Shown here one piece after another: positions 60,866 to 64,000 of a DNA stretch of 64,000 nt (within the stretch, counting starts at the first letter, position 1; every line of letters begins with the position of its first letter). The translations under genes were made by a program, and so were the position numbers. This DNA is from Natrialba sp. SSL1 (GTDB taxonomy: Archaea; Halobacteriota; Halobacteria; Halobacteriales; Natrialbaceae), in contig NZ_MASN01000060.1 in assembly GCF_001861355.1 (NCBI RefSeq), positions 310,001-374,000 of the forward strand, in the 5' to 3' direction. Under the pieces are notes generated by a model. The model ran no database searches. It was not told the DNA's origin and saw only the letters and a program-made list of their open reading frames with translations.

Positions 60866-61582
60866 TTATTCTTGCCTCGTTATCGATCCAAGGGCTATAA
60901 GTACGATTACCAGTGCGCCGAGTGCAGCGAGCGCCGTGAAGCCCGGTAGTCCGTTCTCCTCGCCGTTGCCGTCATCAGTGCTTCCCTCCTCGTTGTCGGC
61001 GCTAGTGTCGGTTCCGTTTTCACCAGCAGACTCACCGTCATCCCCCTCTGACATCTCGGTTATATCAATGTCGTCCTCGCCCTCTATTCGTTCTGCATCA
61101 CTACCGGTTACGTGTGAGTCGTCAACGAACTCGAGTTCTTGAAGACCATCCTCAACGGTAAACGTCACCATCGCGAGTTTAGGCTTGTCAAGGCTATTAT
61201 CTCCGGTAACCGACTCTGTCATCGCTACGTGTCCCTCCTCTGGCATTCCGACGTTCCCGATTCCGTCGAGATCCTCGAACTCGATATCGTTGTCAGTAAT
61301 CACTACGTCCGATCCGTCGTAGCTCAGGTTGGCATAGAAGCCGGCGGTGTCCTCGGCGAGTGAGGCGATTCCGACGGTGACGGACTCATCGTCTTCCTCG
61401 ATGAGTTCGAGCGTCATCGTATTGTCTGCGTTAGTCGCTATCAGTTCGCCCTCATCGGCTTCCTGGATAGTATCGGCTGTCGCGTGTACACTGGCAGCCA
61501 TTGCCGGCGCCGTGGCTGCGGTCATCAGAACGACTACCATTGTGAGGACGAGCAGTAGTTTCGTTGATTTCGTCTGTGTCAT
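60866..61582 (-). CDS. PGF-CTERM surface protein with cohesin-like domain
   Basis: A 238-aa exported protein. A Sec signal (LLLVLTMVVVLMTAATAPAMAA) is followed by a beta-sandwich region (about 50-165) resembling cohesin: TVGIASLAEDTAGFYANLSYD and LAMVTFTVEDG. Then comes an acidic Ser/Gly/Asn-rich spacer and a tripartite tail: LPGF motif, TM helix and TRQE. The tail is a PGF-CTERM sorting signal, read by archaeosortase A, which lipid-anchors proteins to the surface. A strong TATA box precedes it. Its neighbour is a protease with a dockerin. Confidence 0.78.
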   Translation of the reverse strand: MTQTKSTKLLLVLTMVVVLMTAATAPAMAASVHATADTIQEADEGELIATNADNTMTLELIEEDDESVTVGIASLAEDTAGFYANLSYDGSDVVITDNDIEFEDLDGIGNVGMPEEGHVAMTESVTGDNSLDKPKLAMVTFTVEDGLQELEFVDDSHVTGSDAERIEGEDDIDITEMSEGDDGESAGENGTDTSADNEEGSTDDGNGEENGLPGFTALAALGALVIVLIALGSITRQE

Positions 61583-61605
61583 TGTATTGTTTGTATGAAT
61601 GGAAA

Positions 61606-61614
61606 TTATTTATA
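61606..61614 (-). promoter_or_regulatory. TATA box for the PGF-CTERM gene
   Basis: TATAAATAA on the minus strand is centred about 28 nt before ATG 61582. Confidence 0.65.
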
Positions 61615-61698
61615 CCATTGTCGGTGTGTAATAACCGAGTACAAATAAAAACCGCAATGTAGCGGTTTAGTGGTGGTCGTTCGTTCTATACTCTTTAG

Positions 61699-64000
61699 TT
61701 AGCTTGTGAGTTCTTCCAGCATTATCGTGACATCACCAGGTCCAATTTCACCGTTCTGGTTCATGTCAGCGAATTCCTCGTGGAATGTATCGGTCGGTTC
61801 CTCTCCCATGAGGAACTGCTGGGTCAGCGTCACGTCCATGGTGTTGAACTCGCCGTCACCGTTTACGTCGCCAAGCCAACCAGTTTGGATCGTGTCATCA
61901 ATCGGTACGACATCTACTTCGCCGTATTCGTTGTTGAGGAAGGTGTTCTCCTCATCGAATGCCAGTTCACTACCGCTCTGGTCCGCTTCACCGACGATTT
62001 CGAACTCGAATTCGGCGAGTGACGGCGCTTCATCGTCGCTGGCCTGTGCCTGTGCCATTGAAACCGTACCGTTCTCGTTGTCGATGTTTGTCACGGGATC
62101 ATCGAAGTCGACACCCTCGATTCCTTCAACCTGAACGACATCGGGATCGAAGTGAACTTCAGTTTCGTAGCCTGCAACGTCTTCCGTCGTGTTGATCTCG
62201 ATGTCAATCGTCTCTTCGACAATACCGACGTGGTCGCCATCACCGAACGTTAGTTGGTTGTCCGGTAGTTCGTCGACTGTTACCTCGTGAGTGTCGGCGT
62301 CGTCGTCACTCTCGACGGTAACGTTGCCGTCGCCGGCGTCGCTGGATTCGGTTTCCCACGTCAGCGATACGTTCGAACTTTCGCTCTCGCCGAGACCGAC
62401 GTTGGTGCTGTCGACGACGTCGCCGTCGAAGTCAGCGAGCGTGACAGTCTGCGTGTCACCCTCTTCGCCAGCATTGCTCACCATCGCGTCGACAGTCAGC
62501 GTTTCACCTTCGGTTACTGGCTCGTTCGTGTCCGTGATTTCGACCTGGAAGTCGACACCGTCTTCGGCGTCGTCAGACAGGTATTCGACCGAGTTCGCCA
62601 GAATTGTATCGGCGTTCTCGGTGTAGTCGCCGTCAGTGACGAACGTCGAGTAGCCGAGGCTCGATGCGAGGATCGTCGAACTGTCGTCGTCGACGGCGAA
62701 GCCGTCTCCGGCTGGTACGCCGAATGCGACGGTGTCCGCGATCGAATCGAATTCGGTCCCGTCGAACCAGGTATGATCTCCGTAGATGGCGGCGTGAATA
62801 TCGACAATGTCGCCTTCCTCACCGACGCCGTCGAAGACCTCGTGGTCGGCAGTTAGCTCGTATTCGATCGGTGGTGCAACGAGGTCAGCTTCGCCCGTGG
62901 ATTCCGGTTCACCCGTCTCGTCGGAGTGAACTGGGATCGCATTGCTGTCGGAACCCCACTGATCGAGGTAGACAACACCGGTGTCGCCGCCCTCGGTCGC
63001 ATCGATGAAGTCGCCAGCGTTCGCACTGTCGAGGTTCTGCACAACGATTACGTCGTAGTCATCCATCGCGTCTTCAGACGACATCACGACGGGATCGTAC
63101 ATCTCATCGAGCGAGTCCTCGAGTGTGTCAGCGACACTGTCACCGAACCCACCGGCGTCGTCGACGACAGCAACGGGGATGAACTCATCGAAGACGGTCG
63201 TTGGACCGGTGCTTACCGTTTCTTCGTCGCCTACGCCGGCGACGGTGTGCTCGAGTGCGAGTTCGCCTGCGGTGTCTTCAGTCGTTTCGACGGTGACCGT
63301 CACGTCCTCCGAGACTCCACCGTCGACATCGACGGGTTCGCCGAAGGATGCGGCGTCGCCGTTGACGTACAGCGTTGCGTACTCCTCGTCGTAGTCGCTG
63401 ACGAGGTCGACGGTGACCGTGTCGGCGTTCGCGGTCGTGATCGTCGCGTCGACTTCGTCACCGCCTTCGACGCCGTCTGGCTGGTCGGCAGCCAGTTCGA
63501 CGCCGAGTGCGTCAGCCAGTTCGAAGTCCTGTTCCGTGGTTTCTTCTTCTTCAATCGTCACGTCGGTGCTTTCGGCCTCGAAGCCGAACGCATCAGCAGT
63601 GACGGTGTGCTCGCCAGGTGCGGCAAGCGTGCTGTAGTAGCCGTCTGCGTCCGTGTCAGTACTCCCACCGTCTTCGACATCAACGGTTGCGCCGTCGACT
63701 GGCGTCCCGTCCGTGTCCGTTACGGTCCCCTCGATTCCGCTATCGAGTGCGACCATGTCCGTTGCGGCGGCAGCGTCAATGATTCCCATCCCGTAGCGGG
63801 TGTCGTACTCGTTGTCCGGTTCGTCCCAGTCAGATGGCTTCCAGGCGGTCTCCTCCACGGCGTCAGTGAGGAGTTCGCGGTCAGCGTCACCACCGGAAGC
63901 GGAGACCATCAGTGCGAAGGTTCCGGCCTTGTGCGGTGCGGACATCGAGGTTCCGGTGTAGCTGTCGTCGTATTCGCCCTGGTCAACGGGAACAGCGCTC
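61699..64000 (-). CDS. secreted subtilisin-like protease with cohesin-like and dockerin-like modules, 5'-truncated
   Basis: The C-terminal about 767 residues of a larger protein; the N-terminus, signal and Asp/His catalytic residues lie beyond the window. The subtilase Ser motif GTSMSAPHKAG sits at the start; the catalytic Ser codon is 63946-63948. Residues below are numbered from the Met at 63945. Order: protease tail; carboxypeptidase-regulatory-like repeat (GIEGTVTDTDGTPVDGATV, about 70-140); ThuA/GATase-like region (about 255-470); CARDB-like domain (about 475-560); cohesin-like domain (563-691); dockerin-like module (692-748) with Ca2+ loops DVNGDGEFNTMD and DMNQNGEIGPGD. No membrane anchor at the C-terminus. 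Confidence 0.85.
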   Translation of the reverse strand, partial: SAVPVDQGEYDDSYTGTSMSAPHKAGTFALMVSASGGDADRELLTDAVEETAWKPSDWDEPDNEYDTRYGMGIIDAAAATDMVALDSGIEGTVTDTDGTPVDGATVDVEDGGSTDTDADGYYSTLAAPGEHTVTADAFGFEAESTDVTIEEEETTEQDFELADALGVELAADQPDGVEGGDEVDATITTANADTVTVDLVSDYDEEYATLYVNGDAASFGEPVDVDGGVSEDVTVTVETTEDTAGELALEHTVAGVGDEETVSTGPTTVFDEFIPVAVVDDAGGFGDSVADTLEDSLDEMYDPVVMSSEDAMDDYDVIVVQNLDSANAGDFIDATEGGDTGVVYLDQWGSDSNAIPVHSDETGEPESTGEADLVAPPIEYELTADHEVFDGVGEEGDIVDIHAAIYGDHTWFDGTEFDSIADTVAFGVPAGDGFAVDDDSSTILASSLGYSTFVTDGDYTENADTILANSVEYLSDDAEDGVDFQVEITDTNEPVTEGETLTVDAMVSNAGEEGDTQTVTLADFDGDVVDSTNVGLGESESSNVSLTWETESSDAGDGNVTVESDDDADTHEVTVDELPDNQLTFGDGDHVGIVEETIDIEINTTEDVAGYETEVHFDPDVVQVEGIEGVDFDDPVTNIDNENGTVSMAQAQASDDEAPSLAEFEFEIVGEADQSGSELAFDEENTFLNNEYGEVDVVPIDDTIQTGWLGDVNGDGEFNTMDVTLTQQFLMGEEPTDTFHEEFADMNQNGEIGPGDVTIMLEELTS

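Follow-up and report, generated by a model that had tools for sequence, protein, structure and literature searches.

A predicted minimal cohesin-dockerin surface protease pair in Natrialba and its expanded forms in other Halobacteria

How could a secreted protease without an anchor of its own be kept at the cell that exports it? The question is raised by two adjoining genes at one end of the 64-kb stretch of DNA analysed here (the window, G000:C60:310001-374000, contig 60 of a 4.58-Mb Natrialba genome). One codes for an S8 protease that ends in a cohesin and a dockerin, and the other, directly downstream on the same (-) strand after a gap of 116 bp, for a small protein with one cohesin and a hydrophobic C-terminal tail (Table 1). 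An earlier note on the window had described them as adjoining and on the same strand, and both are there. We think that these two genes most likely represent, in its minimal form, a haloarchaeal surface protease system built on cohesin and dockerin, in which the two products would bind each other.

The protease and its small neighbour

The window end cuts the protease gene, which occupies G000:C60:371699-375244 and codes for 1181 aa; the ATG at 63945 is internal to this ORF and not its start. The full translation begins with a hydrophobic signal-like segment, has a complete D/H/S triad (DTG, HGTH and GTSMSAP) and scores 120.2 bits with Peptidase_S8, over the Pfam cut-off. Downstream of the catalytic domain there is a CARDB domain that is missing from the orthologous proteases of other Natrialba, preceded by a conserved YLDQWG region that is also common to dockerin-less homologous proteases. 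No C-terminal anchor was found in the protease. The earlier note had proposed a secreted, anchorless enzyme with a cohesin and dockerin end, and this stands, but its extent had to be corrected, the residues numbered there 563-748 being 996-1181 of the full protein. The protease-borne (cis) cohesin reached 32.5 bits with PF00963 in the genome profile search, over the cut-off, in discrepancy with the hmmscan of the protease, in which PF00963 was not listed. The dockerin, called dockerin-like in the note, scores 31.9 bits with Dockerin_1 (PF00404), also over the Pfam cut-off, and the genome-wide profile search with PF00404 detected no other. It contains two Ca-binding loop-helix repeats, with loop residues that are invariant or nearly so across relatives. 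With a model of the protease tail Foldseek retrieved the dockerin 6kge_B (TM 0.89 on target) and also cohesins; the model of the cis cohesin with the dockerin has a pLDDT of 70, which is weak for judging binding in cis.

Table 1. Features of the locus, in window coordinates; residue numbers refer to the full proteins.
Feature	Position	Strand	Basis
Secreted S8 protease, C-terminal part (residues 416-1181); full gene runs past window end	61699..64000	-	
Peptidase_S8, C-terminal part (domain = residues 208-487; catalytic Ser in GTSMSAPH)	63784..63966	-	Pfam
CarboxypepD_reg domain (residues 504-576)	63517..63735	-	Pfam
Conserved region of unnamed family (YLDQWG...SN motif, about residues 690-895)	62560..63177	-	sequence comparison
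CARDB domain (residues 898-987)	62284..62553	-	Pfam
Protease-borne (cis) cohesin module (residues 987-1119)	61888..62286	-	PF00963; own HMM; Foldseek
Type I dockerin (residues 1124-1175), Ca-binding loops DVNGDGEFNTMD and DMNQNGEIGPGD	61720..61875	-	PF00404; Foldseek
Hairpin then T-rich stretch, terminator-like (weak; -9.8 kcal/mol, z -1.6)	61649..61668	-	gap sequence
TATA-like box TATAAATAA, about 24-32 nt before small-gene ATG	61606..61614	-	read from sequence
Small receptor cohesin protein, 238 aa, predicted anchored	60866..61582	-	ORF and homologue search
Small protein, hydrophobic N-terminal signal-like segment (residues 1-30)	61493..61582	-	sequence
Small protein, cohesin module (residues 45-174)	61061..61450	-	HMMs, PDB profile, structure model
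Small protein, C-terminal LPGF and hydrophobic tail, PGF-type anchor	60869..60949	-	sequence

The small protein consists of a signal-like segment, a single module, an acidic linker and a tail in which, by eye, LPGF is followed by about 20 hydrophobic residues and RQE. Searched by itself it has no family match to Pfam Cohesin or in NCBIfam, a blank that, taken alone, would have refuted the reading of the earlier note. This was overturned by other comparisons. The orthologue in N. asiatica, 55% identical along 146 aa (E 4e-38), scores 25.4 bits with PF00963 and the orthologue of genome G016 29.4 bits, the cut-off being 24.1, and an HMM for which the 14 repeats of a scaffold from a species of another genus were the sole input finds the small protein at E 1.6e-11. 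When a family profile made of the small proteins and some of the protease cohesins was searched against PDB, 16/16 matches were cellulosomal scaffoldin or anchoring cohesins. Furthermore, the first 31 Foldseek matches in PDB of the AlphaFold2 model (pLDDT 85, pTM 0.81) were all cohesins, with the Archaeoglobus fulgidus cohesin 2xdh among the matches. Since profile scores of orthologues, independent HMM, PDB search and fold agree, the small protein is a diverged cohesin, as the note had suspected. The PGF-CTERM lipid anchor also claimed there was borne out in part: the LPGF tail is present, archaeosortase A is encoded in the genome (TIGR04125, 324 bits, at C41:143131) and an anchor is kept in relatives, but the PGF-CTERM model (PF18204) does not match the window copy, which as an archaeosortase A substrate is only partly supported.

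To judge from the gap sequence, the small gene likely has its own promoter. With a putative terminator and promoter in the gap, the protease and the small gene are therefore probably not one transcript, and a polycistronic operon of the two is held unlikely.

Two more small secreted PGF-tailed cohesin-like proteins are encoded elsewhere in this genome, C29 and C30 (L005:2786-3535, L006:2665-3585), and one of their genes adjoins a 5'-nucleotidase-like gene. They are not likely partners of the protease, because most genomes of the family have proteins of about this size that match Pfam Cohesin, and in many of these genomes no dockerin was detected.

Distribution of the pair among haloarchaea

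The pair was found in Natrialba, Halobiforma, Natronorubrum and Haloarchaeobius, on a plasmid of Halomicrococcus gelatinilyticus (where the NCBI label of the small gene is 'cohesin domain-containing protein'), in a Halobacteriales MAG and in genomes of additional families of Halobacteria. The adjacency predicted for related genomes is thus seen in several genera and families. The search gave no small-protein homologue for three other genomes of Natrialba. The genomes that do have a homologue of the small protein (P0002) all have dockerin matches, bar one weak hit. A C-terminal hydrophobic anchor is retained by nearly all relatives of the small protein, either PGF-type or a plain TM segment; the plain tails replace PGF in Haloarchaeobius, Halomicrococcus and the MAG, and therefore anchoring seems to be retained while its chemistry changes.

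We scored 64 homologous proteases for two traits, a dockerin at the C-terminus and a directly downstream gene on the same strand that has a cohesin but no dockerin. Such a gene follows 27/29 of the dockerin-bearing homologues and 0/35 of the dockerin-less ones (27 proteases have both traits, 2 the dockerin alone, none the cohesin gene alone and 35 have neither). A stricter subset gave 23/2/0/19 (23/25 vs 0/19, Fisher p 1.5e-10, with rows that share ancestry). A tree built from the part of the protease outside the dockerin and cohesin modules has at least 4 switches of the dockerin in an initial, smaller set and 6 in the larger one. Only five independent pairs were available for a comparison corrected for phylogeny, and in all of them the neighbour trait went in the same direction or did not differ (median sign-test p 0.0625); the adjacency statistics are thus weakened by relatedness of the rows, to a p of about 0.06. 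One of the two exceptions is genome G031, with multi-cohesin genes elsewhere in the same locus. The second exception comes from Haloarchaeobius iranensis, which has two copies, the first of them with the pair. In the stricter subset a C-terminal TM segment or anchor was present in 0/25 dockerin proteases vs 4/19 dockerin-less ones, and many other dockerin-less proteases lie before a gene for a different PGF-tailed protein.

Two neighbouring arrangements deserve mention. At L206 (G260:C34:394000-409000) a single anchored cohesin gene lies between two same-strand homologues of the dockerin protease, an arrangement that is intermediate between pair and cluster. In addition, dockerin-less large S8 proteases (L147, L148, L157, L158, L085, L138, L172 and L174) are followed by a different PGF-tailed family with the motif FYG.VYVDGEPAP.GTEIVA..DGE; together they are perhaps a second protease anchoring pair.

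Scaffold form in relatives and two groups of cohesins

An expanded form was found in three genomes (G030, G031 and G032) of one genus of the same family, presumably Halovivax. In two genomes the cluster sits in the same chromosomal slot, between helicase and methyltransferase/NMD3-like genes, and the smaller cluster of G031 has flanks similar to that slot. The largest protein, in G032, is a secreted and anchored protein of 2087 aa with 14 cohesins (Pfam E 1.4e-83), accompanied by a 623-aa protein with 3 cohesins, two anchored proteins with one cohesin each and ten proteins with a dockerin, mostly S8 proteases; three of these proteases lack a cis cohesin; the whole genome has 14 dockerin matches. 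G030 has an anchored protein of 1258 aa with 8 cohesins, three single-cohesin proteins and 7 dockerin matches genome-wide. In these genomes with the 14- and 8-cohesin proteins the dockerin matches are mostly at the scaffold locus. G031 has proteins with 2 and 4 cohesins, and 3 dockerins in the genome. The two remaining genomes of the genus (n=5) have no Cohesin or Dockerin matches, and a dockerin-less homologue is there followed by the other PGF-tailed protein. Far from the G032 scaffold locus, L150 and L151 (G032:C1:545000-580000) contain secreted proteins of 2046-2573 aa in which PQQ-like propellers and CARDB are combined with a dockerin at the C-terminus, the dockerin being of the type seen in the cluster proteases.

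In a tree of 113 cohesin modules the anchored and scaffold cohesins make up one group (63 rows, SH-aLRT 92), to which the small protein of the window belongs. Protease-borne cohesins fall outside it, the single crossing row being a protease truncated by the edge of its locus. This division is far from random (4 changes vs 51 in shuffles), although single forks are weak because the alignment is short. The receptor type and not the enzyme-borne type was multiplied, as is predicted for a system of sockets (cohesins) and plugs (dockerins).

Proposed mechanism, alternatives and known systems

The small protein would be exported and retained at the cell surface by its C-terminal PGF/hydrophobic tail, where it would present its single receptor cohesin. 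The anchorless protease, once secreted, would be held by Ca-dependent docking of its C-terminal dockerin to this cohesin, so that proteolytic activity and released peptides would stay at the cell; the likely task is the digestion of external protein in a cell-bound manner. The cis cohesin of the protease may take a further dockerin, chaining proteases, or brace its own dockerin. In the relatives, tandem multiplication of the receptor cohesin would have produced scaffoldins of 2 to 14 cohesins that carry several dockerin proteases. For Halobacteria as a whole we regard as probable a proteolytic machine of cellulosome style, ranging from the one-plug pair up to scaffoldins of 8-14 cohesins with up to ten dockerin proteins per locus, where the enzyme-borne cohesins would have evolved separately and may chain proteases.

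With its own cohesin the protease might also bind in cis or to other protease molecules. The dockerin might then mainly bind the cohesins of other proteases, giving head-to-tail polymers, or its own cohesin in a closed, latent form, with the small protein capping or nucleating. The position of the cohesin, directly before the dockerin in nearly all dockerin proteases, would suit such an arrangement, but the three proteases of the G032 cluster without a cis cohesin and the grouping of cis cohesins apart from anchored and scaffold ones argue against it, and it leaves unexplained why the anchored gene is gained and lost along with the dockerin. We consider it doubtful, though worth keeping in mind. 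In a second alternative the small protein is not an anchor; it would inhibit the protease or help it to fold, covering the dockerin or the enzyme up to the moment of release. An adjoining single-domain partner would fit this role, and cellulosomes are known to include protease inhibitors (PMC12484212), but a hydrophobic anchor is kept in nearly all relatives, and the same cohesin type is multiplied in scaffolds, for which an inhibitor would have no use. We regard this alternative as quite improbable. Finally, that the genes are coincidental neighbours with common Ig-like surface modules that do not bind each other is hardly credible: small PGF-tailed cohesin-like proteins unrelated to dockerins do exist in haloarchaea (C29 and C30 here), but the adjacency of 27/29 vs 0/35, its recurrence in several families and on the Halomicrococcus plasmid, and scaffold expansion in the same chromosomal slot all stand against it.

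A surface protease docked on an anchored cohesin invites comparison with cellulosomes, which are bacterial and fungal machines for plant polysaccharides. The earlier note had read the locus as cellulosome-like, and this is supported, but it had overlooked the scaffold form in relatives, the spread across the class and the distinct group of cis cohesins. Cohesins, type I dockerins, enzymes with a C-terminal dockerin and anchored cohesin proteins are shared with the bacterial cellulosomes of Clostridium, Acetivibrio and Ruminococcus, and multi-cohesin scaffoldins as well, in the expanded relatives only. The differences are the archaeal host, enzymes that are S8 proteases with their own cohesin, the PGF-type or TM anchors and, in the window form, the presence of just one cohesin in the anchor and one enzyme. 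The genome profile search found only single-cohesin proteins and no multi-cohesin scaffoldin in the window genome, and the cluster proteins searched contained neither a glycoside hydrolase nor a carbohydrate-binding module. The only detected dockerin of the genome sits on a protease and not on a polysaccharide-degrading enzyme as in a cellulosome; the haloarchaeal system resembles a cellulosome in its predicted way of working without being one.

Glycoside hydrolase/lyase clusters (GH5, GH10, RGL11) with a divergent C-terminal dockerin were observed at L143 and L144 (G066:C3:138000-176000), and also at L145 and L146. Proteins of 664-811 aa with 2-3 cohesin-like modules are encoded in the clusters, and in G066 a cohesin-like module (E 2.7e-5) was also seen in a protein of 237 aa that has a hydrophobic segment. 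Together these are possibly a haloarchaeal counterpart of the cellulosome.

The closest bacterial parallel is an S8 protease of C. thermocellum whose double dockerin, dDoc_0689, is reported to prefer the cohesin of the cell-bound ScaD (review PMC12484212). In both cases a subtilisin-type protease would sit on an anchored cohesin by way of its dockerin, but there it is an accessory of a cellulase complex and here protease and anchor are a dedicated pair. Among archaea, cohesin and dockerin modules are shared with A. fulgidus (2xdh) and with ANME proteins; binding between cohesins and dockerins of archaea has been demonstrated, and archaea with these modules have been reported without large scaffoldins, the ANME proteins having up to 5 cohesins (PMC9012536). 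In ANME the common proteins with a dockerin are the substrate-binding components of ABC transporters, and no pairing with a protease is described there (PMC9012536). The catalytic domain is shared with other extracellular S8 proteases of haloarchaea, the halolysins and the large PGF-tailed homologues (the large ones also have the YLDQWG region), but these have no dockerin, and some have a C-terminal anchor of their own or precede a different PGF-tailed protein. A haloarchaeal protease-scaffoldin system was not found in the literature searched, with subscription papers mostly outside its coverage, in agreement with the earlier view that such a pairing was undescribed. Within that literature the modules are known singly and the haloarchaeal system of protease and anchored cohesin is new as a combination. 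If true, it would provide a long-asked function for archaeal cohesins and salt-stable parts for designed enzyme complexes, and the single Natrialba pair makes the idea testable with two proteins. The plug-and-socket principle of the cellulosome would then be used for another task, in another domain of life and at high salt.
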